From Rhynchonema sp. JSB1_4 (lineage: Eukaryota > Nematoda > Chromadorea > Monhysterida > Xyalidae), in the NCBI GenBank assembly GCA_030248065.1, contig JASAMV010003281.1:1-64000 (forward strand): 64,000 nt of DNA, written 5' to 3'. Positions within the stretch are counted from its first letter, which is position 1, and the number at the start of each line of letters is the position of its first letter. The notes under the pieces were generated by a model. The model had not been told where the DNA came from and did no database searches. It saw only the letters and a list, made by a program, of their open reading frames with translations. Positions 1,570 to 64,000 of the stretch are shown one piece after another. The position numbers and the translations under genes were made by a program.

Positions 1570-4500
1570 ATGCCGATATCGATTGGCGGCGTGCGCCGAC
1601 ACGCACATCATGCGATTATCGATTTATTGCTGCTGATCGGATTTTTATCGGTGATCAGAGACGCACAGGCCGGTGGACTGTCACTCCAGGGCGGATACGG
1701 AGGAGGAGGTCCTCAGCCACCTCCGCCAACTTATGGGGTCAGTCAGTGGGTTGAGATTTGAGAGGTGCTCATTATGTTCCTCTTGTTTTGTTGAGTGAAA
1801 ATGACGGCTGCAGACCGATTAGTTGCATTACGTCAACCATTTACCATGAACTTGCTGACCGGATCAGATCGATTTGAAATAAGTAGACCGATCACAATGC
1901 AGGTGACTCGATCCTTACACGCTCCGGTCACCCAAGCTTGATGTCAGTTACTATTCTAAGTTGTCGTAACCAACCCCACTCTCATCCTATGAAAACGGTA
2001 TACTGGTCGTTGAGCAACCCACGGTACCGCCGGGTCACGTCAAAATCAGCTACTGTGCAAACGTGATGATTCGCAAAATTGTGTGTCCTGCCAACGAAAA
2101 AGTTAGCACTGAATTGTGTTTGCCTGCATTTCAGGGAGGCGGCGGTTTTCCCAGTCCGGCACCACAGCCGAGTTATCCAACGCATCAACTTCCTAGTCCC
2201 AGCTACCCACAACCTCAACCGCAACCCTACCCTGACCCAGGACCCCAGCCCAGTTATCCCACCCATCAATTGCCCAGCCCCAGTTATCCACAACCGCAAC
2301 CGGTCCCGCAACCCAGTTACCCGCAACCCCAACCGCAACCCTCTTACCCGGGCCCTGCCCCGCAACCCTCCTACCCTTCACCCACCCCTGCACCCAGCTA
2401 CCCCTCACCCCAGCCCTCACCCGCGCCCAGTTACCCAGGCCCCGCTCCGCAGCCCAGCTACCCAGGCCCTGCTCCGCAGCCCAGCTACCCAGGCCCCGCT
2501 CCACAGCCCAGTTACCCAGGCCCCGCTCCACAACCCAGTTACCCAGGCCCGGCACCTCAACCAAGCTATCCTTCTCCTGCGGCCGTGGGATATCCCGGCC
2601 CAGCACCTGGTCCAAGCCCAGGAGGTTACGGCGGGGGCGGGGGCACTCCCCCTGGACCAGACACAAGTGGGTTGAGCTTTGTTTCAATCTCACTCTTGAT
2701 TGTCATTACAACGTACATGTTTATAGGTTATCGAGTTCTTTGCAGTCTGGCGTTGCACACATATCCCAGTACTGAAGAGCAGAAAATAGACTTGTGTGCA
2801 ATATGTGCACCCCCTTTCCCATTATGAAGTTCCAGAGGCTCTAAATGGAAACTGGTGAGAACTATGTATGTATGTATCTGGTCTTTCCGGTTTAGATAGG
2901 AAAATTCCAATGAGAGCCCGCATTTCGCCTCTCAAGGGGCCTTATCTGCGGCGAGACCACCAAGAAACGGTGCCAGAAATCATAGCCAGGCATATGTGCA
3001 TGTAAGATCCTAAAGCGCACGGCACCAATATTCTCAACTGATGCCACACACGCACAGGTGACCCATGTTTCCGTCGTTACGCCAACTGCATCATCGTCAA
3101 CGCGCAGCCATACGAGCGACGCAGCACCGTCAACATCCAGGCGTGCAAGGATCTGTGTCTGGCGTCCACCACGGGCGTGTTCCAATGTCGGTCGTTTGTG
3201 TACGACAATCAGAATCAAGTGTGCGATTTGTTTGGGCACACCGGCAATCAGTACCCGGCAAAGTTGGTTGCACTGGACTGATTCATTGACAGAACATGGA
3301 TTTAGCAGAATATCCCCATTCTCTGCCATCATAACTTCTAATGGCAGAACGTTGCACATCGCCATTTATTCAATTGATCGATTGAGTGACCATGGGCTTT
3401 AGCAGAAGATTCTTGTGGCCGAACATAGATTCGTCCGATTATCGCAGCGTAGAATATCTGGGTTCCCTGCCGTAACATTCCATAGCCACTATACATGTGA
3501 CCGTAATTGGTTTACCAATCGATTGATGCAGATTGATCACATTCTACAATCGCGACTACTACGAGCCAACCGGCACGTGCGACAACGGTGGCGTGTCCGG
3601 TGGCACCACAACACAACCCACCAATCCAGAGCCACCAGTCGGACGTGAGTTGTAATCGAGGCGTGCGATTTTGTGCATAGTCATTTGGAACAAGCGAATG
3701 GTCAACTGTTCAACGTGAGGCTAAGCAAGACCCAGAGGAAAGAGTGGTGTCAGCAGAATGGCTAGACCGATAAAAATGTTATCGCTCCTGGACTTCTCGG
3801 GCTGCGTTTCGTGAATTCAGTTGTCCATGCAGTAGCTCACACAATTTAATTGTGCAACGGGTTTTAAACCAGGACCCACACTCGAGCCCTGCAGATTCGG
3901 CGCCAAAGGTCTAACAGTTAGAACCTATCGTAAACTGGGCGGGACCAAAACCCCTCATCGTATGTACACAACACAGTACATGTACGTTGTAGCTGAACGT
4001 TCCAACGAGAAAAGTTGTGGAACATAATGTACGCACTTGAGCGCAGCCAACAACCAGTCCTTCCATTTTCCAGCCACGTGTCCACTCGGCCAAGACCCAC
4101 GTCTGTTGCGCATTGAGGGTTTCATGTTGCAGGGCAGTGATGATGTGACGCATAGCAATGCCGCAAATATCAATGAATGCATACAGGCGTGCTTTGATAA
4201 CAGGGTGAGCGTTTGGGAATGGGACAGGTACATACTTGTGTTGGGTTTGTTCCTGAGAAAAACCTTCTGTGCGAGATTTTGGAGATCACGATTGAGGGCA
4301 TTGGCTGGCTCTACGCATGAGCCTGTAGTTCGTCTGAGAGCAAGAGAGGCCAACTCCGAATTAACAAGTTTAGTTTATATGACGTGACTTATGTAGCCGA
4401 CTTATGTAGCCTTGTTTTGGTCGCCCGTTCCACAGACGGGCGGTGCACCAGGTCATCGTCAGCGCGAATGTACCAGATGGTCACACAAACCAACAATTCC

Positions 4501-14643: not shown

Positions 14644-16211
14644 CTAGCTTTCAATCAACCACGGATTTGCATCAATGACATCTTTATTCCGTTCACCATA
14701 GTCGTAGAGTAGTTCCTCGCCCTGGGCAATCGTACGCATCGCCACCAAAATCAAATGCGGTTTGCCTGTGAAACATCGTACTGACTTTGAATCAGCGCCG
14801 GAGTTACAGAAAATTCAGCAGTAGAAGACTTAAATACGTTGAATTATAAATACGCTCAGAAGTCCCTGAAATGAGCAGTTTTCAAACATGCTACCATTAA
14901 CTGAAGTGGTTACCTTTAATTTCCACAGCCTTTGTTTGCAGATTCGGCTTCTTCGACGAGTGATTGACCAATCGGCCAAGATATGGACTTTCGCTCGTTG
15001 CGTCAACGCTAAAAAGTTTACGAAGCAAAGGAAGTTAAGTGGGGATAAAGAATGAATTGAGTTATGTTATTAAGCAGGTCACTCCTAAATCAACCAACCA
15101 CCACTGTTTGCCCGAGCACTCAAAATAGTACATGTAGCAACCAACACCAGAGTCGTTAACGTATTGCTTCTCTCGACATTTTGCGGTCTTCACGTCGATC
15201 AGATCGCCTCGGTACTCCACTACGAATTCACCTGAATTCATATGTGACAATGTAGGCAGTTTTTCGGGCGTAGTTATAGCACCGATGAAAGCGAATGTCC
15301 TACATTGCCCCGAGCAACCTGTTTTGCCCCTAAAATTCTGATATATTCTTATTCCGAAGTGAATTCGGATTCGGGAAAACCCACAAGACTCGACCGTGGA
15401 TCATATCCACACTGGTGCAGGTACGCCAAAAATTTGTTCACCAACAAATTACCGGACAGAAGTTGGCTGTCGACTTCAAATACCCACCTCGTTCAAACGA
15501 TCGTTCAGCATGAATGCCTCGTCCTTTGACCGGACATTTCACAACTTCCAGGTCCGGCTCGTCTTCGCGCAAAATCTTATCGTGCAATTCTTGCTGCTTT
15601 TCCTCCTGAATATTTCCATTTGTTATTTGTTAACTCTATTTTAAATCAACCCAAATCCAAAATACGACCAAAGGGTGGCGTGGACGTCGTGGACCAAAAT
15701 ATCAGGTAAATGTAAACTAAAAAAATGCACAATAATTAATCAAACGAGCAACACAACAACACCAACTTCTATGAGTTTTTCCGGCTTTCTTGTGCTTCGT
15801 CTGACCGGGAAATAATCGGTGATACGATGCGATTGGACCGCTTGCTGTTTCTTGGATCGCTTTTTCGACTTTGCCTTCGTTGCGGTGGTTGTTGGCGGCT
15901 CGATCTTATCACCTTTCGACTTTGGTTCGTCGTTGTTGACAACCAGTAACGTTTCCTCGCTCAATGCCTCAACCAGACCAGATGTTGTTTCATTTTCGTT
16001 CAAATCTGAGGGCGGCACCACTTCTTCGGTAGTTTCTGCCGCAGATGATATTTCTGTCTTCTCAGTTGGAGCGCCGTTGATGCCAGATGTTTCACGTTCC
16101 ACAACAACCACCTCGGGCTCAGCTGTGGTTTGCGGTGCAATTGCAGCAGCAATCTCGAACGACGAACATTCGTCCCCGTTGACTATCTTCGTCGTTGTCG
16201 CAGTCGATTTC
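14644..16211 (-). CDS. KMT5A: KMT5A / PR-Set7 histone H4K20 monomethyltransferase, 5' end not resolved
   Basis: Exons 16211-15767, 15605-15488, 15231-15102, 15008-14914 and 14765-14644 join in frame to about 303 codons. The C-terminal SET domain shows GEFVVEYRGDLIDV, GCYMYYFE, CVDATSESPYLGRLVNHS (substrate/SAM-site NHS motif) and EELLYDYGERN, with the chain ending soon after (DANPWLIES), as in KMT5A, which has no post-SET zinc cluster. The enzyme monomethylates histone H4 lysine 20 on nucleosomes and is needed for chromatin compaction and S-phase control. Upstream lies ITDYFPVRRSTRK, a PIP-degron-like motif. The first exon here starts in phase (two bases needed), so a 5' exon is missing; a possible one is at about 16723-16794 (MCKCASISDSF...), low confidence. 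Confidence 0.92.
15797..15835 (-). promoter_or_regulatory. PIP-degron-like motif in KMT5A protein
   Basis: Codes QSHRITDYFPVRR: the T-D-aromatic-aromatic core with a basic residue four positions after the second aromatic. In vertebrate KMT5A such a motif binds PCNA on chromatin and recruits CRL4-Cdt2 for S-phase destruction. The first PIP position is Ser or His here rather than Gln, depending on alignment. Confidence 0.7.
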
Positions 16212-16910
16212 CTGAAATTTGGGTGTAGAGAAAAGGTATCCATGTGAATTTGCAAAAAAACCAAACGAACGCTACATGCAGCTGAATGAAACATTTTGTA
16301 ATTCTGGAACAGTCCAATTCTGGATGGAATATAAAGCCCCAATTCTGGAACACCTCCTTGTCGAACACTGTTACCCGCCTGGTGTGGGGTATTTGAAATT
16401 GGCCGAGAGTATGGAGCATGGGAAATTCTTAACTTTCGGAACCAGCACCCCTGAGTACTTTCGGGTTTTGTCCGCGGTAAGTACGGCGAGCGGGACACCC
16501 CAACGGTTGGCCCCCCGACGAAAAAAATCATTGTTAATAATGCCCCTAAAAATGGCTTGCTTTCGGTATTTTCTAGCTTTAACAGCGGCAATTATGCTTA
16601 AAGCGGCCCCGCCCCGCCGCTATTATTTTTTTGATTTTCGACCTCGGTTTTTTTACTTATATCGTTTGTTGGCATCGAGATCAAAAACATTAGTTTTGAC
16701 GAACTTCACCAAAATGGCGATTACCCACCGAAATCGATCCACCAAGATGGTCTATCGGGAACAAAACTGTCTGATATTGACGCACATTTGCACATGATGG
16801 TCAGGAATGACAAGAGAAGTTCAAAATCACTGGGGCGTGATATAGGCGGCGGGTTACGGTAGCCCGATAAAACATTGGCTCTATTGTAAATAATAAATGT
16901 TATGTCAACC

Positions 16911-17310
16911 CAGTGTAGTGGCAGGCCCATGTGTGCGAGGTAAGTATGATGCGGGGTTGGGACCGGATGCGTGAGAGGTATGATTTTGGTCACCCAAAAA
17001 GGCGAAAAAAAACCGTTTTTGTGATACAATTTTGGCCAAAAAATGAGGTAAAAATAGTACTTTTTCCAAATTTTCGCCGAAAATCGCCTAAAAACAGGTA
17101 TTATGGGAGGGTTTGCGCGCGTAGCGCGCGATTTTTGGGAAAATAAGGTCGAAAAACACCGATTTTTGCCTTAAAAAGGTATAAAATTGCTTGTGAAAGG
17201 TATGATTTGGAGTTGTGAGAGGTAAGTACTCAACCCCCCCCCAACCCCCCTCGGGTTTTGTGGTAGGTAAGTACTGAGAGGGGGGCAACACCCCCCCAGC
17301 CACTACTATG
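16911..17310. mobile_element. hAT-like non-autonomous element with 8-bp TSD
   Basis: Flanked by TGTCAACC (16903-16910 and 17311-17318). Termini CAGTGTAGTGGC and GCCACTACTATG are inverted repeats with two mismatches. 8-bp duplications and a CAGTG tip fit hAT. No transposase reading frame. Confidence 0.85.
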
Positions 17311-17339
17311 TGTCAACCTACCGTAATGCGCCGCCTATA

Positions 17340-17445
17340 CCACACCCGGTATTGGTATTGGGTACTGGTATTGGGTCACCAATTTGGTATTGGTATTGGG
17401 TATTGGTACAGGGCCGGTATTGGTATTGGGTATTGGTATTGGGTG
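17340..17445. repeat. TATTGG-type tandem repeat
   Basis: Runs of GGTATTGGTATTGGGTATTG flank the hAT element at 17446; the same block recurs at 17925-17972, so a pre-existing tandem or duplicated segment was split or copied here. Confidence 0.7.
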
Positions 17446-17877
17446 CAGTGCTGTGGCTACTTTGGCGGGGCGGGTAGGGTACATAGGTGGAAAAAATCGG
17501 GGCGGGTAGGGGGTAGTGTACCTGGGAGTTTGGGGGGGGAATCCGGGTTGGGGAGGAAGATTTTTCGGGGCGGGTAGGGTACAACACAAGTTTTTTTCGG
17601 GTGCCTGTTTTTATGTACTAAAAAGTACATATATCGCGCGCAGCGCGAGATTTTTTGCACTTTTTAGGGTTTTCGGTCGAAATTTGGGCATTTTTGACCG
17701 AAAAATGGGCATTTTGAGTGTAAAAATCGGGGCGGGTAGGGTACCAGGGCGGGGCGGGTAGGGGGTAGGGTACCAGAGCGGGGCGGGTAGGGGCAGGGGG
17801 TAGCGTACCAGGCCGGGGCGGGTAGGGTACCATTGGGGTGGGGACCCCCCACCCCCACCCCCCCAGCCACAGCACTG
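17446..17877. mobile_element. hAT-like element, perfect TIR and TSD
   Basis: Flanked by ATTGGGTG (17438-17445 and 17878-17885). Termini CAGTGCTGTGGCT and AGCCACAGCACTG are perfect inverted repeats. The interior is rich in GGGGCGGGTAGGGTACC and includes CATATATCGCGCGCAGCGCG, shared with the element at 18473-19075. Confidence 0.9.
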
Positions 17878-18309
17878 ATTGGGTGTCAAAAGTGGTATTG
17901 TGCCCAGGCCTAATTGGGTCTCACCCGGTATTGGTATTGGGTATTGGTACAGAGCCGGTATTGGTATTGGGTGTCAAAAGTGCTATTGTGCCCAGGCCTA
18001 GCCACTACTATGCCCCCAGGAACTACACTGGACCCCACTGAAAAAATAAAACCCGACAATTCTATTTCCGACAATATGGTCACGCACAGTGTAGTTCCTG
18101 GGGGGGAGGGCCACCCCCTAAGGTACACTAACCGCCGCGACCAAGGTACACAGTACACTAACCGCCGCGCCAGGTACACTAACCGCCTCAATTTTCGCCG
18201 GCATTTTTAGGCCTAAAAAGGGCATTTTTAGGCCTAAAATGGGTGATTTTTAGGTCAATGATGTCAAAAGTCGTCAAAATACCCTTTTTATAGAGAATTT
18301 TTTCCAAAA

Positions 18310-18640
18310 AGAGGCAAAAATCGGTCAAATTTTCTTCCTCAAAAAGTGACTTTTTCCTGAATTTGGGTCTTCCCCCCAGGGAGGTATACTGACCGCCGCA
18401 CGGAAAAAAGGGGTAGATACACCACAGACCACAACACTAACCGCCGCGCCGGCCGGACCAGGAACTACACTGCAGTGTAGTTCTGGTCCGGCGCGGCGGT
18501 TAGTGTACCTGCCCCTTTTTTCCGTGCGGCGGTTAGTGTACCTCCCTGGGGGGAAGGGGGGAGCCCCAAATTCAGGAAAAGTCACTTTTTGAGGTAGAAA
18601 ATTTGACCGATTTTTTGCGGTCCCTAAACCGAATTTCCCC
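18310..18640. repeat. ~330-bp palindrome centred at 18472/18473
   Basis: The left arm ends CCAGGAACTACACTG and the right arm begins CAGTGTAGTTCTGGTCC with no spacer. Both arms continue through GCGCGGCGGTTAGTGTACC, a CCGTGCGGCGG block and AAAGTCACTTTTTGAGG-type sequence. Arm identity is high but not perfect. Confidence 0.85.
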
Positions 18641-18986
18641 CCCCCCCCCCAAAATCCCAGGTACACTACCCCCCTACCCGCCCCGATTTTTTCCAGGGGG
18701 GGAGGGGGAAGATTTTTCGGGGCGGGTAGGGTACAACACAAGTTTTTTCGGGTACCTGTTTTTATGTACTAAAAAGTGCATATATCGCGCGCAGCGCGAG
18801 ATTTTTTGCACTTTTTAGGGTTTTTAGGTCGAAATTTGGGCATTTTTGACCGAAAAATGGGCATTTTGGGGGTAAAAATCGGGGCGGGTAGGGTACAAGA
18901 GCGGGGCGGGTGGGGGGGGTAGGGTACCAGAGCGGGGCGGGTAGGGGGGTAGCGTACCAGGCCGGGGCGGGTAGGGTACCGTTGGG

Positions 18987-19026
18987 TGGGTGCCCCACCC
19001 CCCCCCCCCCCCCCCCCCCCCCCCCC
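18987..19026. repeat. Poly-C tract
   Basis: An almost pure cytosine run of about 30-40 bases near the right end of the composite hAT insertion. Such tracts are error-prone in assembly, so its length should be distrusted. Confidence 0.8.
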
Positions 19027-19615
19027 AGCCACAGCAAGCACTGCCCCCCAGGAACCACACTGCTCTGCTACACTGGTCACGCACGGTCAAACCCGGCCCA
19101 ATTGACACCTCTGAAACCAACTAACTTTTTGCGCACTTTTCGCTTTGCCATTACAATTTGCTTCTCTTGATTTTCAAGTCAGTCAAGCTTTATTGAGCCA
19201 TTCGCAAAAGCCTGTTTGTAGGCTGGGAAATTTTCAGTTCCAGTCAGGCTCCGTTGCGTGCGTTCCGTCTCTGAATCTGAAGTCACAGGCGGGTAGCGTT
19301 TATTTTTGCATTGAATTTGTTGTCGGTAGCACAGCATTACCATCGCCGTTTAACAGGTCGAAATAAGAAAAACATCACTGCCCAGCAGCCCATTCACATC
19401 ACACAAAAAATCACATTTTCTTTTTCTTTGGGCCAAGCCAACCAGGAAAACAGCCTAGCCGGTAAGGCATGTTGGGAAAAGCTAGTCCAGTTGCCTTGAC
19501 AGAGAGAAAACGCGAATTTTCGATTTCGCGATAGAAGGCCGTGCCGGGAAGACTCATTATAAATAAAACGGATTAAACAGATTAACCGGATTAAACGGAT
19601 TTTTGCGTGCTGGGG

Positions 19616-43013: not shown

Positions 43014-46000
43014 ATGAACAAATCATTCTCGCACGATGTCCCCGGATCCAGCGATCAGTTGACTTACACGTCGATTGCGACTTGCTCTGAACAATCGCTG
43101 AAATCGGTTGGTTGAGAGTGATTTTTTTTGACGAATGGTCGTTATTAGCCGGCATTCAAGAGGCTGAGATACTCATTTTGCGGTGCAAAGTCCGGGCTTA
43201 TTTTTTAAAATGGCGAAACTCGCCACTTGACCCAAATCGCCAGTAGCGATCTTAAAATTGAAGTGGCGATTACGGAACCGCACGTTGTGCCCTGTAAAAA
43301 GCTAGAGTCGCCAAATGAAAGACCGCAGCACAAATTTTTTTAAGCTTCGAACTAGTAAACGATTAAAATTACGCGATAAGCAGTGTATTAATTACATCAG
43401 TGTTTACCAAAGTGCTCAACCTTGTCATACCATGCAGCTGGCCAAAATAGCCACCTGGCCCGAAATATGTCGTGTGGCAAATTTCAAATGGCGCAATTCC
43501 CAAAAAAGTGGTGTACCGTTGTAAAATGTTTCTAAGCCAATGCGTATCGAATCACCAAGTTAGGAACGGCGGTCACTGAGTCGTACCGCATATGAACGCG
43601 CCAGCTCTGCTTTATACGCCGCACGGCGCCAATATATTTCCGTTTCAACATTTCCTCTCAGTCTCATGTGCGTGGCGCGTGTCGCACGATTGAGGATTTC
43701 GACAAGCTGAATCGAGTCGGGGAGGGCACCTATGGAGTGGTCTATCGTGCACGCGACAACAAATACAACAGAATTGTGGCGTTGAAAAAGCTCAGGTTCG
43801 GTTTTTCTCAGAGTCACAAAGTTCTCTCTCTTAAATTTCACACTCGGTATTGTAATTATGCTCTGAGTTGGTGTGGGCGCAACAAACTAAACTAACTAAG
43901 CTCTCCCTTATGGTAAAAGCGGACCTGTGTGACAACATGTGGCATCGCCTGAATTTCGCAGTTTCCACCTCGGTGCGGTGCGTGATTTTGGCATGCGTTG
44001 CGTTGCGTCTTGCCATTCAACTTTGCGAATGTGGTCTTTTCTTAGAATTAACAGCAGTTTCTTTGCAGAGTTGACAAGGCGACGGATGGCCTGTCGGTCA
44101 GCAGCTTTCGTGAGATCAGCTTGTTGCTCGAACTCTCGCACAAAAACATTGTCAAACTGCACGAGGTCAGTCATTTAATTCTTCATGTCGATGTCTTTCG
44201 TCACCTCGTGGTACAACCAGATTCAGCTCTGATGCTGACTATGCAAACGTCAACCATCTAGCTTCACACATTAACTGCCCGGCGCAGATATGCACGAGCA
44301 GTATGTTTATACATTGCGTACCTGACGCACGGCACTAATATTCTGAATTGCAAATTCAATCCACAACATTTCATACCAACACACAGGTGGTGGTCGGGAG
44401 TGGCCTGGAGCAGAACTACCTTGTGATGGAGTACTGCGAGCAAGACCTGGCCAGTCTGCTGGACAACATGCAAGCGCCGTTCAGTGAGGCACAAGTCAAG
44501 TGCATCATGTTGCAACTGCTCGAGGCTCTCCAGTTTCTGCACGCACATTTTATTGTGCATCGCGATATAAAGGTAATGCGCGCGTCACTGATATTTTGGA
44601 TTGGTTGTAAACAAACTTGCCGATCGGATCGGACAAGACTCTTCTTCTTCACGGGGCTTTTGTGAAGAAAGAAATTTACGCAGGTCTCAAATCTCCTGCT
44701 CACCGATAGTGGCTGCGTCAAATTGGGCGATTTTGGCCTGGCACGTCGTTACGGCGAACCGATGCAGAAAATGACGCCGAAAGTGGTCACGCTGTGGTCT
44801 GTTAATTGTATAACATAAATTGATAGATTTGGTGCTGCGCATATAAGCATCTGTTTGGTGAGCTGACTGTAGGAGGTTCACCAGGGCATCGATAGGGTGA
44901 ATGCAAAAGGTACCCATGTGACCCCAACCCCAAAAATACGTAGGTGGGAGCAGTTTTCCAGACGTGGGCTGTAATCCTCTGTTACTGCAGGCCTGGGAAC
45001 AGGCGGTATTTTTTAAGACACCCATTCTGTGCTTGTATGTGTAGCACTTGTGCTGAAATTTTTAGGTACCGTGCCCCCGAGCTGTTGTTCGGCTCCGAGA
45101 TGCAAACCACGGCAATCGATATGTGGGCAGCTGGATGTATACTTGGTGAACTGCTCATACATCGACCGCTCATGGCTGGAAAAACGGAATTGGCACAGGT
45201 TTGGCTCGATAGGTATTCAACGATCAACGGAATTCACAACGTTTACTTGTCAGTAAGAACAGCCAATGACAGGGCCTGAAATAGTCAACGTCGTGGCCAG
45301 TGTCGACCTTTGTAACCGGATCAGATCTGCTTTGATCACGTGGCTCCTTTCAACTAAGGCTTGTTGTGGCTTTACTGGTGCTGATGTTAGTTTATAGCGC
45401 CGACACCCACTCCATAATACATAAATAAGAAGATTAAGTGAAAGAAGCATAATTACAAGGCCGGGTGTGGAGTTTACGGACATGAAAATACATACAAAAC
45501 AGGGTGTGCAAGTTACGGGAATGAAAAATATATACAAAACCAGGACAGGAAAGGGTGAGAAGGTGGACGAAATCACGGTGCTGGTGCTGATCCCTATCTT
45601 TGTGAATGGACCGTTTGGTATTCTGGTCTTGTCATTTGCAGGTCAACCTAATAATCTCCCTCTTGGGCACGCCGAATGAACAGATCTGGCCGGGTTTCGA
45701 GTCACTACCATTGTTGCGCACATTCACATTGAAACATCAGCCGTACAACAATTTGAAGGAGGTTGGTTCTCAACTGTGGGAACAGTACAGCAACTCTGGG
45801 GACCTGTCGAGAACCGGGTGGCGAATACAGGCGTTTCCTCATTTTCCATCCACCGTTGCAGGTATTCAAAGACGTGTCCGACATCGGTCTAGCCCTACTA
45901 CACGCGCTGTTCATGTACGACCCGGTCAAACGTGCCACGGCCAGTGAATGTCTCAAAAGTGAATATTTCAAATTGCCACCCCTGCCCTGTGATCCAAATA

Positions 46001-46107
46001 TGATGCCCAGTTTTCCGCAACATCGAAATCTCAAACGGAGACCCCTTGAACTGGAAAAAGATGAGATGGTGAAACCGAAAAGATCGGTGGGCAAAACTAA
46101 AAAATGA
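43014..46107 (+). CDS. CDK10: Cyclin-dependent kinase 10
   Basis: Exons 43014-43106, 43662-43795, 44069-44165, 44387-44572, 44684-44796, 45066-45198, 45642-45761, 45862-46107 join in frame to 373 aa. Kinase features in order: [11 protein letters not shown] glycine loop, ALKK lysine, [11 protein letters not shown] (cyclin-binding helix equivalent), [65 protein letters not shown]..., CEQDLASLL and the tail [16 protein letters not shown] are CDK10 hallmarks that separate it from CDK11. In vertebrates CDK10 pairs with cyclin M and limits ETS2; here the partner is not known. The first exon starts at the only ATG in frame with the conserved [11 protein letters not shown] block, but its N-terminus is not conserved, so the start is less sure. 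Confidence 0.95.
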
Positions 46108-46153
46108 CATCAATTATTATTGTTGGTGGCTTGTTATGAAACTGAACGCATGA

Positions 46154-46390: not shown

Positions 46391-46396
46391 TTTATT
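46391..46396 (-). terminator. Putative polyadenylation signal of saposin-like gene 1
   Basis: AATAAA on the minus strand, about 100 bp past the stop at 46499. Confidence 0.6.
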
Positions 46397-46498
46397 CACG
46401 TTTGAGCATTTTATCTTGGGTTGCTGAAAAAGCAGCGTTGTTGACAACCACCTTTATAATGCCGATAATGTCACCATGCAGAGGGTGGACTGTTTCAG

Positions 46499-48612
46499 TC
46501 ATAAACGTGACCAACCGACAACGCATCCGAATTGTTGGTCGATGAATTTGAAGATGCCCTCTACCATACTGACGAAGCCGGGCACCGTGTCGTTCATCAG
46601 ACGTTCGCACATTTGCTCAAGGAACGGCACCGGGGTGCCTTTGCACGCTGCGATTGCTTTGTTGAGCCATGTTGCCTGAACGAACAAGTATAACGAGTAC
46701 CACCTTGGTCGGTATCAAGCTTTCGTGATTGGTTCGGTCCTCTGAATCGGTCGGTGACTTTTTGCACTTTACCTCGTGCTCCTGGCACTCGGTAGTCTTG
46801 GATTAGATGTAATCGTTGTTCCCAGCGCCCTTAGGGTGAACTTAGGTTAAATCCGGAAACCGGAAATAATTTGCATACAAAACCAAAACATTTCCGGACT
46901 CCGGAAATATTTCCTGAAAACGCAGAAATTTACATGCAAAAATAATACGTTTTCCGGAAATATTTCCGGTTTCCGGATCCAACCTAAGTCCGCCCTCATA
47001 TTGCTCAGTGGCTTTTTCAGCCAGGCCAAATTCAGGCACCAGTGATTCACGAAATATGTGCGGAACTTACAGTAACCGGACCGGTCTTGCCGCTCATACC
47101 TAATCACCACGACAAAATCACGTTGATCTTACCACGATCGCTTCCACCCGTGCCATTGCATCACAGACGGGCGGAAACGGGGCACCGGCACCCGCGCGCG
47201 GACAATTCATAATTTTCTGCAGAAGATGTGCATCATCAAACGTGCGCCACATATTCACAAAACGGCAATAAACAATCATCATTGTTTGATGACAAGCACG
47301 CAGCACACAAACAGGGTGCTCCGTTTCGTTCTGTTTTCACGAACGGACGGTGCTCTGGGACATCGTCAGTCCCAGTGCACCAACTAGCAATGTTACTCGA
47401 AGAGAGTAATGTATTTTTCCTTAATCATCACATGCTGCCGCGTGCGAAGCAATGACATGGAGCTTTTTTCATGTTACTTACGACTCGGAACATTGCAAAG
47501 TTATAACAAATGCCATTTGGGTATGCGTGAATGAAAGTGCGCCCACCTGACAAAGCGCCTCTGAATTGACCGTGACATCGACGATTAGTTGATCAAGCGA
47601 ATCGCACTGGAACATTACAAAGCACATGAATGTTCTATACGTTCGAATATTATGATGGCCACGTTCGAATTTTTTTTGCCAAGTACAGCCATTTATGATG
47701 CTCTGGGACGCTTTTTTGACGGACCACATTAATGTTTGCTGTGAAACATCATCATACTTGCACTGGGTTAAATCAAAGCACACTCATGACTGTGTGATGT
47801 TTCACAAAACATTCAAACCACAAACTGTGTTTGCGGTAATTGTGACTCACGTTTCCGCTGATCAAACAGTACGCCATCGCGGCTTGCCGCATTCGTTTCA
47901 CATTATCTTCATTCTTCAGAAGTCCGGCTCCTGCATAAATCAATTTACAGCACAAAACAGCACACGAAATGGAGGGTTTGGCATTTGCCTACACCTGGAA
48001 TGACCAGGATTTCAGGAATTTTCAAGCAGCCATTCCCATCCCACACATAACCAAGCGGACGTTGGGAAGTTGTCTATATGGTTGCTTTGCATGCGCAAAT
48101 TGTACCACAAAACAAGAATAAAGTAAGTGAAAAAAGCGAAATACAATATTTTTGACACACACCGTGGTGACAGACTGTGCACAAGTCAGTGAAAATATCA
48201 GCATCCGTTTCGCTTATTTGTTCGTCCACCTTTGGAAGCACCGCACCAGTGACCGCACTCAGCAACACAACTGTAAAACCGTTGGTCAAACATGTATAGT
48301 TTATGGTCGACCACAATCTCTGCGGTTAACACTGTAATTGTCTCTGTATAATAAACGACAGTTTGGTCACCACACACCATCACAAGCCTCCCAGTAATAT
48401 CCCTAAAATTTTGCCATCTCACCACTGCGAATATTTTTTTGTGGTGAGTGCAAGAATTCAGGTGTCAATCCGAAATGTATATTTGATGTGTACAAAGTAT
48501 TTTTCAAATTACAAAAAAACAAATTCTCGCGTTATAAAATTTGTGATAAAATGGTTCCAGACATTTTAGTTATTGAAAACGGCTTACCAGTCAGCAGCAT
48601 AAACGTCTTCAT
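46499..48612 (-). CDS. Secreted saposin-like protein 1
   Basis: Exons 48612-48588, 48270-48163, 47930-47851, 47606-47547, 47216-47133, 46675-46499 join in frame to 177 aa. MKTFMLLTVVLLSAVTGA is a signal peptide. A saposin B-type domain follows: DLCTVC, then a Cys after about 25 residues (AYC), GNCDSL, and LCQKIMNC, six cysteines in the usual spacing. A second Cys-containing helical part (AACKGTP, QMCERLMND, FGC) ends the chain. Saposin-like proteins bind or disturb lipids and are often secreted by gut or gland cells; which role applies is not known. It has a paralogue 1 kb upstream on the same strand (49653-51080). Named for fold only; no orthologue recognised. Confidence 0.85.
46834..46995. 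mobile_element. PIF/Harbinger-like MITE in saposin-like gene 1
   Basis: Ends GGGTGAACTTAGGTTAAATC and, reversed, GGGCGGACTTAGGTTGGATC; interior full of TTTCCGGAAA-type words. Flanked by TTA (46831-46833) and TCA (46996-46998). Same family as 12791-12948. It lies in the last intron. Confidence 0.8.
47320..47388 (+). repeat. Dispersed repeat D, copy 4
   Basis: CCGTTTCGTTCTG...CGAACGGACGGTGC then GACATCGTCAGT; diverged member, in an intron of saposin-like gene 1, antisense to it. Confidence 0.55.
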
Positions 48613-49652
48613 TTTGCAAAAAAAATGCTTCCGCTGCTTCAGAAACAGTAACTGTACGTAATAAGTCAACTGCCCTTGTAAAGTTGTAATAATGAGATGA
48701 TATTTTTTACGATTATGCTACCGGAGTAGGTGGGGCTGATTTTTGGGTAGTTCTTATCAAAAAATTATTCAAGTTATTTCTCCACACAAAAAGCAGAATA
48801 TGTCGATAAAATACTTTAAGGTAGTGCGTAAAAATTTGACTTGCATATACTTTTCCTGAGTTTTCATCAGTTGTGCGTCGCAAGTGTTTCTCGGTCTCAA
48901 ACTGAGTTCGAAGATTGCGCTTCAAAGTGCAATCTGCTTGATATTCAATAGCTTCATGGAACGCAGCACACATTGAACCAAAGCAAACAGTTTGCGTAAC
49001 GAAAGGTTTGTGTCCCCACTAAATATCCTCTGTGGTGTAACCAGATTTTCTATGATGTTCCCAAAGCGGTCTTGCTTTCTTGTTCCCATTCCCATCCATA
49101 TGGCTCCCCGTTATTATCCCCACACAAAGTCTTCTTCCAAATAATTTTTATCACCAACTTTTCTCTTCCTACAAAACAACAATAACGTACTCGTTCAGTT
49201 ATCAGTGACATAAATCACTAAAATAATACATGATAGGAAAACAACCGGTTTATATCTTTCGACCAAACCCGTGACCGTGTGAAAATAATTCACCGGGAAG
49301 TGCTGCATTACCGTATACGGTTGAAAATGTGCAGGATCATTCAGATAAATTTAAGACATTTCATAAAACACATCTATTTTGAAAGATCAATTACTTCAGA
49401 AAGATCAATCAATTAGCGCAGATCAATAACTTCAAATTTCTTCAGGTCTGCTTCGCCTAACGAGCCTGAAATTCTATTTATTACATCATTGTTGCTTTGT
49501 GCATAACAGCGAGTCTGAAGTTGCGGAAATGTGACACCTCGTCAAACAGTACGATTACAGTCGATCCTCTGTAGCGACGCCATCCGGAACTGGTATTTTT
49601 TGGTCGCAATGCATGGTTATTCACTGCATTGCATGGGGAACTCAACGGCAAC
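48613..49652. other. Intergenic region between the saposin-like paralogues
   Basis: Holds the 5' flank of gene 1 and the 3' flank of gene 2, with a minus-strand AATAAA at 49477-49482 about 170 bp past the gene 2 stop. No other gene is supported. Confidence 0.5.
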
Positions 49653-51080
49653 TCAGGAACATCTTATGGAGTGGAGGATTTCACCATCAGGGTCAATGTA
49701 AAGAGGGTGCATTTTACCAGACCAACCAGTCTGATTCCGTTCACATCCGAACAGCGTGTCCACGGCGCTAAACAAGGTCTCCACAAACTGGGTGAATTGG
49801 GGCACCGTTTCGTTCATGACTTGTTCACAGAATTGTTCGATTGTTTGGATCGGGATGTGCTTACAGCCGTCAATGGCCTCAGATGGCCAACGGGCCTGAA
49901 ATTAAAGTAGGAAATGGATGAAAGTACTGTTGATCATTCGGTGGGGGAGTGCTTGCGATATGCACTGTGCATTCTTGGTACTGCCCGTTTCGACTTGCCT
50001 TCGCAGACGGACGGTGCACCAGGTCATCATCAGTGCAAATGCATCAGATGGCTATGACCCCAAAAAACACATGTGAGCTGAGCTTCGTTTTCTGCTCTGG
50101 TCGCTCCAAACATGAAAAGCCTGGGCCCGGAAGAGACAGAGCAACAACGATATCATAGCCTGCGCGCTTACCACATAATCTTCCACGTTTTTCATCGCCG
50201 TGCAAACGGCCGGAAACGGGGGTGCTGCCATTTTGGGACAGCCCAGTTTCTGACAGGAACCAGGTAGATGCACTTTGAGCACTTCGGACATCAGTGAGTT
50301 CACATCCAAACCTGCGCACTGAAGAAATGAATGAAACATTTGCAACTTCGGAGTAGCATTGTTTCTTTTAGACCGATGATGGACTTCGACTTGATGATCG
50401 GATCTGCCTGGCTGATGTTTCTTAGATCTAGCAACAAATTGACTGTTGGCACTCGTTTTGACCAGCGTAAATGTTGTTCCCAGGCCTAAAATTACGCTGG
50501 TCGAGAATAGTGACATCGGTAAATTTGTTATTTTTTGATTCAAGAAACTCACGCGACCCATGTGGGTCGACCTGATTTGATCCGATCACCAAACCTTCGA
50601 TGCCGGTTATAGTGTGCCCCAGGGCATTATTATGATTCGGACAGAATTCACCCTTCAAGTTTATACACACCTGTTTACTGAACATGCAGTACGCGTTGAC
50701 TGCTTGTTTCACGCGTTGCACATTGTCGGGTTGCAACATCAGCTGCACACCGTGTTCACATACAATGCACAGGTCGGTGTATAGGTCGCTCGGTTCTTTG
50801 GGCACATCAGCCAATGTGGAGGGACTCGCAGCCAGAACGGTTAGCAATGCTGCAATCAAATATGAACCGAATCCGGTACTCCCGCAACTCGAGTACCCGT
50901 CATGCCAAGACTAAGGTCGGCATTAAACTTGGTGAGCTACAATCAGATCGAACCCAGTCCGATCACTTTATGGTCGAGAAATGGTCTGTTCCTATCATCA
51001 AAATTTGATTCTCAGTCTTAGGCTTTTAGCCGAACTACTTCACGCAAAGACTTACCAGCAACGCAGACTTGGAAATTCAT
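49653..51080 (-). CDS. Secreted saposin-like protein 2
   Basis: Exons 51080-51056, 50849-50671, 50318-50172, 49895-49653 join in frame to 197 aa. MNFQVCVAALLTVLAASPSTLA is a signal peptide split after codon 8, at the same place as in paralogue 1. Saposin-type cysteines follow: DLCIVCEHG, NAYC, QCAGL, SCQKLGC. The C-terminal half (FPAVCTAM, DGCKHIP, QFCEQVMNETVPQF, LFGC) matches the paralogue, then a unique tail of ~30 residues ends IRCS. Two introns of paralogue 1 (47850-47607 matches; 47546-47217 and 48162-47931 have no counterpart) are absent here. Function as for paralogue 1, unknown. Confidence 0.85.
49980..50052 (+). repeat. Dispersed repeat D, copy 5
   Basis: CTGCCCGTTTCGACTTGCC, then CAGACGGACGGTGCACCAGG and TCATCATCAGTGCAAATGCA. 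The most complete copy with 4421. In the last intron of saposin-like gene 2, antisense to it. Confidence 0.75.
50448..50515. repeat. Dispersed repeat B, inverted pair
   Basis: GGCACTCGTTTTGACCAGCG...TTACGCTGGTCGAGAATAGT, arms of about 20 bp around a 20-bp loop. In an intron of saposin-like gene 2. Confidence 0.7.
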
Positions 51081-52395
51081 CTTCGCAACTTTTACTTGAA
51101 AGAATAATACAGAGTATGTCTGGGACAGCAACAAATTCCAGATACCTACCTAGATAGTAGCAATAATAGCATAGGGGGTTCGTTCTGGACAGCTATTTTA
51201 TACCATCACAAAGTTGACTCAACGCATTTATTTCTCTGTTGTTTGCGTCAATGGATGTTCTTATCAGACGTGCAGACGGATGGGAAAGCCCTTTATTTCA
51301 TCACTTTACTCCACGAAAGGGGCGTGACCAAATATTGAGTCACGGGAAATACTTTATCAAAAAGCGACTTAAAAGTTCACCTTTGATGGTGTGTCAGCAG
51401 GTCCGTGAATATACTGTAGTTTCTATTAGCACCCCCCAGGTTCACGAAGCATTGGTTTGGTTTGTGAAAGTTGCCGCCGTATATTGCCTTTCAAGGGAGC
51501 GTTTGGGACTGTTTTCGTATTTTTCAGCGTGTTTATTGGCGAGGTTTGAAGTCCATAGATCGTAATGCATCACAATAGTACTCAGCTTTTTTTTATATAT
51601 TCTGAGCTCCGAACAATGATGATCATCATTACACAAGAGGGATCACAAAATCCAAAGACTAACAAAAGAAAGCTGAGCGACTTCTCCTAAGTGATCATAA
51701 GCAAAAGCCGTTAATAGATCCAAAGGACATATCACTATCAGCATTTTTGCAGTCAATCTCAGTAGTTCATGGTCCTATTCAATTGCGCTCCTTTCGCTCC
51801 ACATCAGATTGCTCTAACGCTTCAAAGCTTCAGGCGGCCATGTGTGCGCGATTTGCGTTGATCTTGGATCTTCTCTTGAATTTCTTTACTCTATCCCGTC
51901 TTGGTGCTGTTGTTTCTTTGAGTCCAGATGTTGAAAAAGGCTTGTCTGCGATGAATTTAGTCTCTTCTTAATTGGAGCTTGGTAGATTAGTGATGTGGTG
52001 GGTAGGATCAGCAGACGAGTTTGGTGGGTTACTGTGGTTAGTTGGAATGGAAAGGGATGTGATGAAACTTTCGATTGAAGATTGATCGAAAAGGTAAAAT
52101 TCTTCGTCGGTAAAAAACCAGAAATCCGTATCCAAACTCAGTACTCAGCTTTGAAAATGACTTCGTTCGTTCGATATTTCCCGCTGAGAAACATTCATGC
52201 ACTCATTTATTCAAAACTCTAAAATTCGACCATCTACCATAAAATATCATAAAAATGATAATAAAGACAAGGTCAAGCACAAGCAAAAAACATTAAAATA
52301 TGGATAAAACTCTGCTTTTTTGGGTTCAACTTGTGCACAATAAATACATAAACAAGCAAAAGAGTGAAGATTCAAGTGAAACGAAGTGTGGTATA
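51081..52395. other. Intergenic region
   Basis: Between saposin-like gene 2 and the reeler gene. The open stretch at 51239-51565 has no conserved motif or splice support. A minus-strand AATAAA at 52206-52211, about 185 bp past the reeler gene stop, may be its polyadenylation signal. Confidence 0.5.
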
Positions 52396-55300
52396 TTAGC
52401 ACGCTATCCGATAATAAGAAAAATAATAGCACACGAAAGCGGTCACAATGAGGGAATGACTAGACAAATCGTAGAATCGTAAATATTTGTGGGTTTGGCC
52501 GGTTTTTGGCAGTGTCAGGGCCAGACTTTGGTGATTGCACAATCTCACTTGACTGTGAATGCCGTATGTGCTCAGGTCGACGCGTTTGATACGGGCGATC
52601 CAGCCATCTGAAACATCACCCAGCCAGGAGGATGAATACATAGCAGCCTCGAAGTATATGACTGACTTGATTTATTGACAGCAATTAGGTTTGACTTGAT
52701 TCATTGACAGCAATCAGATTTGTGAGTTACTCATGTACCAGTAGTGTAACCTGCTTATCATGTCGTGACCCTCTATTGAGTGACAACTCTATTGCGCACA
52801 AACAATTTGTCCAAGCTGCAGTTGACCTCCCACACATATATATGACGTGCTCACTTCACAATAACGAAGCCATAGTCGCATTCGAGTACTAATTTACGCA
52901 CTGCAGCACAGAGCGTAGAATCCAATCACAGCAACACATCTAACCTTGAGTGATAGTGCCATAAGTGAAGTACACTTTTTGGTGCGGTTGAAAAGCGAGA
53001 TTCTTTCGCTGGAAACTACATCTGAACCGACCGTCAGTCGTATGTTTGAGTCGGGTCGGTCGTGGGGCGTTGTCGGGGTCGAGATAGACCTGGGAGGTTG
53101 GATTTAGAATATTAATGCCACGCGCGTGTAAAGTTGAAGATCGGACCGAGAGCGAAGGTCCACCAGCCAGGACCATAGGGATCTAAACTGCATTGGCCCC
53201 ATGATTTTTTATTTCGAGAATGACATTATTGATCTCAAGTCTGGATGTCATCTGTTGTCCTCAAACAACTTTTACGCTGGTCCAAATCAGTGTATTCAAT
53301 AATTTTGGAAAATCTTCAAATCAAACATGGATCGCATACTTGACAGCCATCATGTTCGTCCCACCAAATTTGAAATCATCCCAGAATATCCCGCATTACC
53401 AACCTCTGAGTACGAATCCGGCAGAAAATAGTTATTGACGGTCACATAGCGCGTGCCATTCAGATGCAGTTTGTATTGACACAGCAGACTGTTGCCATGC
53501 TGCAATTGTGATACGGGGAATTGTGAAATGAAGAATGGATAAAGAGTTTTTAAAAAAATCTGTGAGCATGACAAAAATTTGCCGATCCTGATAATCCGTT
53601 TGCTGCATCAACTTTGGTCCTGCCTCGGTCTGGCTTTTTTGTATTTAGGAAAAGGGATTCTCTGATGCCACTGATCTTGGTCACCTTAACAGTTTTTCTG
53701 TCAAAAATGTCTTGGGACAACTGTTTCGCAAGTCGAATTTGTGGTGGCACCGGAAGATCTCACTACCTTCTATGAAAAAGCCTTGCCAGACCTCCCGTTG
53801 ACCGTATTTTTTAGGATACATCCGGAGCCTAATGTTCCGAAAGCATAATTTCGTGAAACATCACCAAAGTGCACGCACCCATGAAAGTCCGACGAAAGCG
53901 TCGGTCGGCGTCTCAACGTTGGCGTAGCGCGGGAAAATATGCGATTTGTGTGCGATTATGTCAAAGTACGTCTGCGCGTGCTGGCATTTCCAGCGCAAAG
54001 TGTAATCACAGGTTCCTGCGAGATGGTTGATGCACATTTTTGTGTAGTTTTGCAAAAAAATGGCAAAAAAATTAAAGTTTCTGTTGAAACCTGTGTTGGC
54101 GCAGCCACCGTCACCGGCGTGGATGCAGCCGAAACCGAGGCCGCACACGTCTGTTGATACTGAAACATCAGCAGGTTTTGGAGAACACGCAGGAAACAAA
54201 AACTGTTTTGTATATTCAAACCGTGAATTTTCTCAGTTGATGGGTGTAGCACCGGGGACATTATATTCGTCCAGAACACGCGTCTGCTGGCCACCACGGT
54301 CGCGCTGCAAAATTTTCACTACCGGTGTAAAAATTTTCTCTCACTTTTGAAATAATGAATAACCTACACATTTTCTCTTACGGGTGGAAAGTGTGAACAA
54401 TTTACGCATTCGGTGTGAAACGCATTGACCACACAGTTTGAAGGTATGAATAATTTACACTTGTCGTGCCAAATTTACTGGCACAAACTTTTCAACTGAT
54501 AAAGACAAATGAAATATATTACGCACTCACACAAACACAATCGGTCCAACATCATGTTCAGGCGGGTACCAATTGAAGCTGGTGTGCTTTTTGTTACGCG
54601 AATCTATGTGCGTGACAGCAGTCGCCTGAAACATCAAGTAGAACTGTTGATACAATACACAGGTCGATCGTGCGTCAAAGTTTTCGTCTCATTAAATCAC
54701 ATACTGTAGTTACCGTAACCTGCACCACTCCAGCCACCAGCTCATGAGACGCCATCAGCTGAAACTGGCTTCGCCAGATCTAATAATATTTCGGTTCCAG
54801 TGTTTCGAAAACAAAAGAAAGAAAAGTGACAGTGTACATTGCATACACAATTTCTCTTTCTTTTGTTTTCGAAGCAGGTAGAACCGGAACATTATCGAAT
54901 CTGGCCAAACGAGCTTCAGTTTGCTGCGTCTCATGAGCGGGTGGTTGGACCATACCTGTCTGTGATGCGCATGTTTCCGTCTCCTATGCCATTTCTGATC
55001 ACATTGCAGCAGTTTGGCACCGACGGGCAGCGGGGGCACGAAATGACCGACTCGACGTCCGGACCCGGTCAGTGTGCGTGCCTGCAGCATGAAACCGACG
55101 AAGCGCGGACCGCGGATGGTCACTGAAACATTAGAATAAAGTGCGACCACTTTGGTTCTTGTATGTAGGTACATATCTGGCCGTATCAACTTTGACGGCA
55201 AGCACCATACAACTACGGTTGTATATATGTTCGACTCGACCCCTGGTCACAATTATCATGGCTGCGTTGGACCTTGTGGTAACTTCATCGTTTGAGGCTT

Positions 55301-56583
55301 GGTCTTTATGCTGACGTTCAGAGTCAGTTCTTGCCAAACCACATGTGGGTCCCTCATGCGTTCATTTTGCAGCTTTATAGACAACCATTCAGTCAGCCAG
55401 CGCAAGCACATTACACTAAATTAAACGGTGTTTTGGGCAAAACAGACCCCAAATTCAGCATCGGAGCATGGCAACTTGCGCAATCACTGAAGGATTATGG
55501 GGTTTGGGATTGGTGTTGGCCCCATTCACGTAAGGGCTGAGCGCGCAACACGTAATTTGTCATGTCAAAAGATTCCCTCTTTGTCAGACCAAATATTTTG
55601 AGCATATTAGTGCCGTATGCATAAGCGACGGTGTAACTGATGCAATGAAAAGGGGTGCAACATGAACACGGATGATTTTTCATGTTCATGTTTCGAAGCA
55701 AGCCGTACGCGTATGACAGCATGCTTTCCCGGAGACACTAATATTCTGAGCCAACGTCACCACACACGAAGGACCTTGGTTGGTTCAGATTCCGGTACCA
55801 CAACGAACTAAACTGGTACTGGTTTCAATGGTGCAGAGAAGAGCCACTCACACGTTATCTATATGACATGATGACAGGCTAATCACTATGACCAGTAGCA
55901 TACTCCTTACAGCTTCACATGTCGTCTTTGACCGAAGGTCATCATCCGTTCAGACACGTTTGGCTCAAGCAAGGTCTCATTTTGCATGCCATATACATCT
56001 CAAATGTCGCTTGGGTTCACTCCATTCACATCGAATGACGCAAAACCCGACCACAAATGGGTGTAATCATGATTTGCATTTTGATTATTTGAGTGTAAAG
56101 TCGCGCCATCAGACATGGCCGTTGGTCTTGCGTTACTGGCTGCTGGATGTAGTGAAAATCCGCAACCCGCAGCATTCAGACTATTGATGCTGCGGGTGTC
56201 AGCATACCAAGCTGCCAACAGCACGAAAACTTCAAAAACTGCTGTGCATGGTGCTAATATTTCAAACAAACGATCAAACTGGGACATTAAGAAAGTGATT
56301 TCCACCAACCCCTAATCGCGTATCGTTTATCCGGCTGGTATTCGTAGGCAAATCGATAGAATCGGTCAAATGCCCTCAGATCATAAGGGGGTGCAGTCTG
56401 ATTAGGCAGCACCCCATGGCCTTGCACTGAGTCGGGACTCGGCAGCATTGAGTCGCACGCTGACAAGGGGGCACCGTTTCGATAGGGCAGACATGATTGG
56501 ATGAGGAGGCTGAGACCCAGCCAGACTCGCCTCAAGTCCAGGGGCAGGGAGTTCGAGAGGCTTGGGCCCCAGGCGAAGCGCAT
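52396..56583 (-). CDS. Reeler plus DOMON domain protein (ferric-chelate-reductase-1-like, no cytochrome b561)
   Basis: Exons 56583-56310, 55122-54956, 54625-54531, 54304-54222, 54159-54091, 54015-53879, 53769-53722 (tentative), 53499-53404, 53089-52945, 52607-52396 join in frame to 441 aa. A signal-like hydrophobic stretch (RVWLGLSLLIQ) precedes YRNGAPLSACDSMLP. The reeler domain (~35-205) shows GPRFVGFMLQAR, AVTHID, FNWYPP and ATVVASRRVFWTNIMSP. Then VCGLGFGC...TCDYTLRWKC opens a DOMON-like domain ending DGRFRCSFQRKNL and VYFTYGT. The tail (LIVTAFVCYYFSYY) is hydrophobic, either a membrane anchor or a GPI signal. In animals this pair occurs in FRRS1 with a cytochrome b561 core, which is absent here, and in secreted reeler defence proteins. 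Redox or immune roles are inference only. The 48-nt exon is the weakest call. Confidence 0.85.
54740..54938. repeat. Inverted repeat in reeler-gene intron
   Basis: Arms ~54740-54828 and ~54852-54938 are inverted, about three-quarters identical: CTCATGAGACG, CGCCAGAT / TGGCCAGAT, TTTCGAAAACAAAAGAAAG. The outer end lies 18 bp from the exon at 54956. Could be a MITE or a local inverted duplication. Confidence 0.7.
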
Positions 56584-62819: not shown

Positions 62820-64000
62820 ATGTCCGCAGCACTATTCAATCCGGACATTTCCGTGCTCAGTGCTGCCGATTCGAATAGGGAAAGATCGTTGCAGGTTTTT
62901 CATATTCACACGACATGAAATTATTTTGTTAAAATTTTATTAAAGTTAAAAGTCGGTTAGGGTTTCAGAATACTGTTTGACATTTATGTTGGGATCAAAG
63001 TTGGGGATAGGATAGGACCGATCAGATCTGCTTTGTCACCTTACTTTGGTGTGTTGAGGAGCAACTGTTCTGCTGATGAAAGTTCATGGCAGACCGATTT
63101 GTTCCAACAGTCCGAGAACTAAGTTTGATAGCAATCTAAATAAATAAAAACTGTATCCGCAGACATACACCAAGAACAAGAAAGCAATAGCTGAGGGTAC
63201 AGTGACACTGCGAATCAAGGACTTCTCCGACATGGCGGACGAATCATGCTACGCGAACAGCCCAGTGCGCACAATCGCAGGTTGGTTGGCTGATGTTTCA
63301 TTGTGATGTGCTGCAGACGATGAAAAGCGAAACAATCACAGATATAAAACTATTTATGAGCTTTGTGGCGGCTTGCTCTGGGCATGCGTGAGAGGTGAGA
63401 TTTCTGTAGTTCTTTGTACCGCAACGAGGAAAATGTACAAAGTCCGATCTGGATCGAGCCTGTCGATGAGCCATTGTAAATCTTTGAATGCACAAAATTG
63501 TATGTTTGCTTAGACGCACGACACTAACATTGAACTATACATAACAGGTCTGACGTGGCGTCTCCGTGCCAGGACTGAATGCAGCGCACGTACGGGTGAC
63601 CAACGAGCGCTCAATCTGTTCCTCCACTGCAACGCCGGATCGCAATCGAGTCTGTGGTCGTGCGAAGCGCAAGTCAACTTCAAATTGTTCGACAAATCAG
63701 GTATTTGAACATGTTGAACATGAGCCCATCAGCTGTGAAGCGTGCTGAATAGCCGGGGCGAGACGCTAGAGACAGGATTGAGAATATGGCCCGGATCTTC
63801 GTTGGGACTGCGACCCGCCGAGCAATAAATTCGCCGGGGCTAGAAAAACATGAACATACGGCATAAATAGGGCTCGCGCTAGCACACTCAGTTTGAAAAA
63901 AAGGAACTCCACCTCATCCTCCTGTACTTCAGGTCGCGGCGAACACTACTTCACCAATTTCACCTACAATTTCCACGCAACGGCAAACAATCGTGGTTAC
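62820..64000 (+). CDS. MATH-domain protein, 3' end outside the window
   Basis: Exons 62820-62894, 63163-63280, 63548-63700 and 63933-64000 (runs off the edge) are in frame. After a 25-residue leader, the MATH/TRAF-C domain reads EGTVTLRIKDFSDM, SPVRTIAGLTWRLRAR, LFLHCNAGSQSSLWSCEAQV and YFTNFTYNF. The CNA-S-WSC-AQ block resembles the MATH domain of USP7, but MATH-BTB adaptors share the fold and the decisive C-terminal part is missing. Either way a role in ubiquitin pathways is likely. The first ATG after a stop-rich stretch was chosen as start. Confidence 0.85.

Follow-up and report, generated by a model that had tools for sequence, protein, structure and literature searches.

Background

Extra U1 small nuclear RNA (snRNA) genes with altered letters are described in human (vU1s) and Drosophila, and many of the human variants are reported to be altered in the 5' end that contacts the intron donor (PMC5159530, PMC10645366). 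In Saccharomycotina the preference at donor position +4 is described as having switched from A to U at the level of species, together with loss of METTL16 or SNRNP27K, and the U1 sequence ACUUACC as invariant in every species in which a U1 was found (227 + 9; PMC10581693). In the tunicate Fritillaria borealis, introns outside GT/AG are described, in connection with U2AF or N6-methyladenosine (m6A) (PMC13326754). Here we describe a shift of the donor consensus in the nematode Rhynchonema sp. JSB1_4. It was noticed in a stretch of 64,000 nucleotides (GenBank assembly GCA_030248065.1, contig JASAMV010003281.1, positions 1 to 64,000 of the forward strand; hereafter the window) and is also found on two further contigs, and two variant U1 genes in the same genome are candidate partners of it.

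As in human and Drosophila, this genome has extra U1 genes with altered letters. The variants of those species are described as minor (PMC10645366, PMC5159530), whereas here a change at U1 position 6 complements the commonest letter at +3 in the introns examined. As in Saccharomycotina, the preference at +4 has changed at the species level. However, the described yeast switch leaves U1 unaltered and goes with gene loss (PMC10581693), whereas in Rhynchonema G leads at +4, +3 is altered as well, two U1 genes read ACUAACC and the genes for both proteins are kept. The likeness to F. borealis is that an animal spliceosome accepts donors outside the consensus, but in Rhynchonema GT-AG is retained, the change lies at +3 and +4, and the candidate is the U1 sequence rather than U2AF or m6A (PMC13326754). 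The donors are also unlike those of human, about half of which are reported to be GURAG (R, purine; 53.6%; PMC11732430). Many of them resemble the AG//GUNNN donor class, in that AG precedes the cut but RA does not follow it. They do not simply belong to that class, because GURAG is so rare here and G at +5 is kept (3 and 44, respectively, of the 51 homology-placed introns described below). Among the matches listed in our literature search we found nothing relevant on GTTGGT donors or on donor shifts in nematodes, which is no proof of absence in print.

Donor consensus on three contigs

Donors were collected from the window and from two further contigs, C137 and C1676. A first set was obtained with our own spliced aligner, which scores protein similarity and charges a flat price per intron. 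It favours GT at the donor, allows GC, AT and other starts at a cost, and ignores the remaining donor letters. Profiles of 30 to 40 homologues were used for CDK10 (window) and for eIF3D and XRN1 (C1676), and single PDB chain sequences for KMT5A (window), a PTGR2-like gene and AP3D1 (C137), and MPG and RRAS2 (C1676). In these eight conserved genes 72 introns were placed. We removed 21 of them for a flank score below 5 on the left or below 4 on the right, or for a gap nearby, and kept 51. The second set comes from a gene finder, a small generalised hidden Markov model trained without supervision by expectation maximisation (EM) on 254 kb (the window, 100 kb of C137 and 90 kb of C1676), starting from GT/AG only. 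It predicts 389 introns, 290 of which remain after removal of those with repeated flanks (108 and 85 in the window). The gene finder recovers all six CDK10 introns exactly, and 41 of the 51 homology donors are also present in its list.

The donor consensus shift in this nematode is real and is seen on all three contigs. In the homology set, T is the commonest letter at +3 (T21 A13 C10 G7) and G at +4 (G17 T15 A11 C8), and the positions kept are -1 G (41), +5 G (44, 86%), +6 T (35, 69%) and, more weakly, +7 T (28). The commonest hexamer is GTTGGT with eight examples, followed by GTATGT (5), GTGGGT (3) and GTCGGT (3); GTAAGT does not occur, and GTAAG begins only two donors. The GURAG-like letters of U2-type introns at +3 to +5 are therefore not kept, with 3 of 51 donors in this set (p=3e-13 for three or fewer at the human rate) and 28 of 290 in the gene-finder set. 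Before filtering, the 72 introns have T30 G16 A15 C11 at +3 and G28 T19 A14 C11 at +4, with GTTGGT 11 and GTAAGT 0. The 290 gene-finder introns read T128 G73 A45 C44 at +3 and G109 T81 A70 C30 at +4, with G at +5 in 244 and T at +6 in 190; GTTGGT occurs 47 times, GTGGGT 14, GTTAGT 12 and GTGCGT 9 times, and GTAAGT twice. The pattern is the same on C137 and C1676 as in the window. It is weaker in the 99 repeat-flanked introns that were removed (+3 A30 G28 C21 T20; +5 G46; GTTGGT 2, GTAAGT 0).

The original prediction, based on a hand count of about 90 introns in the window (about 17 with A at +3, about 14 GTTGGT, about 6 beginning GTAAG), was that GTTGGT, GTGCGT and GTGGGT are favoured over GTAAGT on both strands, with +5 G and +6 T well kept. 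The 85 filtered introns of the window bear out the count (+3 A 11, GTTGGT 16, GTAAG 2, GTAAGT 0), as well as the kept positions (+5 G 77, +6 T 56) and the presence on both strands, GTTGGT occurring nine times on the forward and eight times on the reverse strand before the repeat filter. The preference for GTTGGT extends beyond the window, at 47 to 2 over GTAAGT among the 290 introns and 8 to 0 among the 51. However, the three hexamers are not favoured jointly; GTGCGT and GTGGGT, with four examples each in the window, are much rarer than GTTGGT among the 290.

The loss of the A/R preference at +3 and of A at +4 is firm. A positive choice of T at +3, and then of G at +4, is likely; it is clear in the model-based set of 290 and suggestive in the homology set. 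Compared with all GT sites of the 254 kb (+3 T.303, +4 G.236), the 290 introns are enriched in +3 T (p=4e-7), +4 G (p=8e-8) and the two together (p=4e-12), and the 51 homology introns give p=0.074 for +4 G and p=0.0055 for the combination. The two letters are coupled, since among donors with +5 G, G at +4 is found in 62 of 110 with T at +3 and in 41 of 134 others. The result also persists when the gene finder is led towards the usual consensus. When EM is started from a GTRAGT matrix it reaches a slightly lower score, with GTTGGT again the top donor (52 of 386; +3 T.36 G.30 A.19). GTTGGT also remains top with that matrix frozen (29 of 337). The frozen matrix recovers 35 of the 51 homology introns, compared with 41 for the learned one. 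With no donor matrix only 21 of the 51 are recovered, and GTTGGT still leads (22 of 324).

These are otherwise ordinary introns. All 51 filtered homology introns start with GT, although other donors were allowed at a cost, and 50 end with AG as aligned; one eIF3D junction aligned to ACA. Among the 72 unfiltered introns a single CA start and a single GC start occur, in each case with badly matched flanks or with alternatives resembling GT. U12-type introns have the donor motif RTATCCTT. No donor starting with GTATCC was found among the homology introns listed, and AT starts, which the aligner allows at a cost, were not used. Acceptors mostly read TTT(T/G)CAG, the type usual for nematodes (-6 T 65%, -5 T 74% and -3 C 76% over all 389 gene-finder introns).

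We also considered and rejected mobile introns (introners) as carriers of GTTGGT. Among 113 similar pairs within the 389 introns, 31 start at the donor in both members, and the 20 of these that were listed we take to be repeat-derived false genes. By their base counts, GTTGGT introns have no strong common sequence past +8, and the repeat filter took only 2 of 49.

U1 snRNA genes

The original prediction also proposed inspecting the U1 5' ends for compensating changes or several variants. We searched the whole assembly (204 Mb, 5747 contigs) and found that two of ten U1-like loci carry A at position 6, which complements T at +3. The Rfam U1 model places nine of the ten above its cut-off of 69.5 bits, and a DNA search with the variant U1 returns the same nine. 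In a search for the 5'-end pattern eight of the nine match exactly and the ninth with one mismatch, although the total number of hits is no greater than in the control. Six loci are standard, with the 5' end AAACUUACCUG. Two are variant, with the 5' end AAACUAACCUG, and lie at C137:40934 (L006) and C4510:68156 (L007); in both, U at position 6 is replaced by A. Each of the remaining two loci has a different stem-loop I loop. One (L012, on C3984) is U1-like with the 5' end AAACUUACUUG, and the other (L048, on C2996) is degenerate, falls below the Rfam cut-off and begins with AAACUUACCUC.

Besides A6, the two variant genes have the stem-loop I loop GAUCAUUGAG in common. A mutual identity of just 85% marks them as separate paralogues; their identity to the standard genes is 83 to 88%. 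Both score well above the Rfam cut-off (109.4 bits for L006 and 106.9 for L007) and keep the U1A loop CCAUUGCACU. The U1 fold is largely preserved, and the pairs of the model are standard in 41 of 46 positions in L006 and 44 of 46 in L007. Compared with the standard gene L001, L007 shows three two-sided pair changes, one one-sided change and no broken pair, and L006 one two-sided and four one-sided changes. L007 is preceded, exactly at the standard distance, by the promoter block TTTCACGCGNGAATGAC, which resembles a proximal sequence element (PSE).

The standard genes are themselves not uniform. Promoter block and U1A loop are both intact in three of the six, L001 to L003. The other three (L004, L005 and L008) are nearly identical to one another. 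In L004 and L008 the promoter block is missing from the usual distance, a copy being found some 300 bases upstream. The U1A loop is altered in L005 and L008 (AUGGCAC). The snRNA promoter block TTTCACGCGNGAANGAC occurs 267 times in the genome with at most one mismatch, compared with 29 times for the reversed control. Its 61 exact copies far exceed the number of U1 genes, so that many of them may stand in front of genes for other snRNAs or for spliced-leader RNAs. L006 (C137:40934-41096, forward strand) lies on the same strand within a predicted intron (40110-41267) of a gene model at 39529-46440 that looks fasciclin-like by eye.

A C at position 5 of U1 would be expected to favour G at +4, but none of the eight exact pattern hits has it. 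A one-mismatch hit on C1723, AAACCAACC, does have C at this position; we set it aside, as the search gave 25 hits in all compared with 43 in the control. Another one-mismatch hit (C4663:28477-28494, AAACTAACCGGGCGGGGG) has TA at positions 5-6, lies outside the hits of the U1 model and of the DNA search, and is probably due to chance.

Predicted pairing between donors and the two U1 classes

Position 6 of U1 faces donor position +3, where A6 would pair with U. The predicted duplex of the GTTGGT donor CAG/GTTGGTTT (slash, cut site) has -13.1 kcal/mol with the A6 variant and -9.3 with standard U1. For CAG/GTAAGTTT the order is reversed, at -9.3 and -13.4, respectively. T at +6 and at +7, both kept, fits the AAA with which both U1 classes start. 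The variant U1 with A6 is the best candidate partner of the donor shift. The variant is predicted to pair better in 119 of the 290 introns, the standard U1 in 113, and the two equally in 58; in 42 homology introns the numbers are 16, 19 and 7.

Our tentative preference is for a major spliceosome in which two U1 classes share the donors. The introns are ordinary GT-AG introns that retain only -1 G, GT, +5 G, +6 T and a weaker +7 T, +3 and +4 having been freed from A/R and A. Standard U1 would pair with A at +3 and tolerate G, and the A6 U1 would form a Watson-Crick pair with U at +3 and a wobble with G at +4. These two contacts should make the binding of GUUGGU to the A6 U1 about equal in strength to that of GUAAGU to standard U1. 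In the presence of both classes T, A and G would all come to be used at +3, and the commonest hexamer would be GTTGGT. The variant would have to be transcribed and to enter snRNPs (small nuclear ribonucleoproteins), where it might cause or permit the shift. It is possible, although we would not assume it, that the duplicated A6 U1 is a working second reader of donors, that introns are divided into GUU donors served by it and GUR donors served by standard U1, and that U1 and splice sites have co-evolved across the genome.

Several observations weigh against the two-U1 account. In L006 four pairs, most of them in stem-loop III, change to or from a non-standard form, and its promoter block, at the usual place, has diverged by about four letters by eye. 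Standard loci outnumber variant loci six to two, and human U1 variants are reported to be outnumbered by canonical U1 more than 1000-fold in spliceosomes (PMC10645366). Taken alone, the surplus of T at +3 among the homology introns is not significant (p=0.065, n=51), and A at +3 (13 of 51, 25%) is not below background. Neither U1 explains why G is preferred over A at +4; the variant binds GTTAGT (-13.4) about as well as GTTGGT, yet the counts are 12 and 47 of 290. Finally, averaged over all donors, the two U1s have about the same duplex energy, which fits either a service split between them or an irrelevant variant.

Alternative explanations

The reading of +3 and +4 could instead have been relaxed through another part, such as U1C, LUC7, PRP8, the U5/U6 handover or snRNA modification, with the A6 U1 a bystander or minor species. 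We regard this as a genuine if uncertain possibility. It would accommodate the majority of standard loci, the equal mean pairing, and the G at +4, which neither the U1 nor the U6 letters explain, and it agrees with the homology set in that +3 and +4 are near background there except for the T-G pair. However, plain relaxation would not yield that pair, which is above background in both sets, and the base complementing the commonest +3 letter is present in two separate U1 genes.

Drift of a composition or mutation bias (TTGG-rich sequence) into the donors, with unaltered machinery, is unlikely. GTTGGT makes up 0.9% and GTAAGT 0.2% of all GT sites in the 254 kb, and the near-background letters of the homology set could be explained in this way. 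However, under a standard U1 selection for A/R at +3 would be expected to continue, as it does for +5 G and +6 T, and T and G are far above background in the 290 introns.

It is very unlikely that the need for A at +4 has been lessened by lowered function of U6 m6A or of SNRNP27K. In yeasts the preference at +4 is described as tracking METTL16 and SNRNP27K (PMC10581693). Loss of either gene was not found in the assembly; the METTL16 exons, including the (C)NPPF motif, and the SNRNP27K exon with YMNRKGG are present and look normal. The methionine of the latter motif we take, from the human C-terminus, to be residue 141. Several near-identical copies of the METTL16 exons (L023-L028) exist, on C5237 and on both strands of C3041, from recent duplication or as haplotypes. 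These copies may not all be functional, which leaves some room for this explanation. The U6 genes are unaltered in the relevant box, both full-length copies (L013 and L014) among nine matches reading ACAGAGA; L015, L016 and L017 are truncated to the 5' half. In addition, the route described for yeasts yields U at +4 (PMC10581693), whereas G leads here, and it does not address +3.

An artefact of intron placement is scarcely credible. The gene finder is biased towards the consensus it has learned (+3 A 16%, compared with 25% in the homology set), and false genes in repeats required the removal of 99 of 389 introns. However, the aligner, which ignores donor context, arrives at the same top donor and the same scarcity of GURAG, and GTTGGT leads even without a donor matrix.

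With these weighed, the sharing of donors by two U1 classes remains the explanation that we prefer. The original prediction saw the bias as a property of this genome's spliceosome. This is partly supported, in so far as the pattern is found on three contigs and in eight homology-checked genes, and several U1 variants exist, two of which complement T at +3. U6, however, has no compensating change, and that the variants are expressed and cause the shift we only infer.

Genes and introns of the window

Gene models of the unsupervised gene finder occupy positions 1570..63708 of the window, the first intron beginning at 1738 and the last ending at 63547. CDK10 lies on the forward strand at 43668..46107, with an approximate start of the first exon. 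Its six introns, all placed by homology as well as by the gene finder, are at 43796..44068 (donor CAG/GTTCGG), 44166..44386 (GAG/GTCAGT), 44573..44683 (AAG/GTAATG), 44797..45065 (GTG/GTCTGT), 45199..45641 (CAG/GTTTGG) and 45762..45861 (GAG/GTTGGT). Two introns of KMT5A, on the reverse strand, were likewise found by both methods, at 15232..15487 (GAG/GTGGGT) and 15009..15098 (GTG/GTTGGT).

In a search with the CDK10 model the top match is a record from the mite Medioppia that contains a duplicated stretch. The best nematode match of the eIF3D and XRN1 models on C1676 is Plectus sambesii (56% and 50% identity, respectively). For eIF3D many other nematodes rank after it, and the very top row, a Coregonus record with 45% identity, was set aside. 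These two genes thus point to a nematode, and one without a close relationship to the species matched. A SMYD model had no PDB match at 1e-8, and a nucleoside hydrolase match was dropped as too weak. Several exons predicted on the reverse strand at 46392-56583 of the window look saposin-like by eye and possibly form a small tandem family. Repeat families with translations containing runs like GRAGPGRP are found at about 16200-24000 of the window and in parts of C137 and C1676. These repeats misled the gene finder, and similar stretches recur across the contigs examined.

Conclusions

In this genome, introns will be misplaced by gene finders that have learned GTRAGT donors. Few pairings in eukaryotes are as conserved as that between the donor and the 5' end of U1. 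A genome with GTTGGT as its top donor and with matching U1 genes would allow testing whether the sequence of U1 drives splice-site evolution, and whether one spliceosome runs on two U1s.

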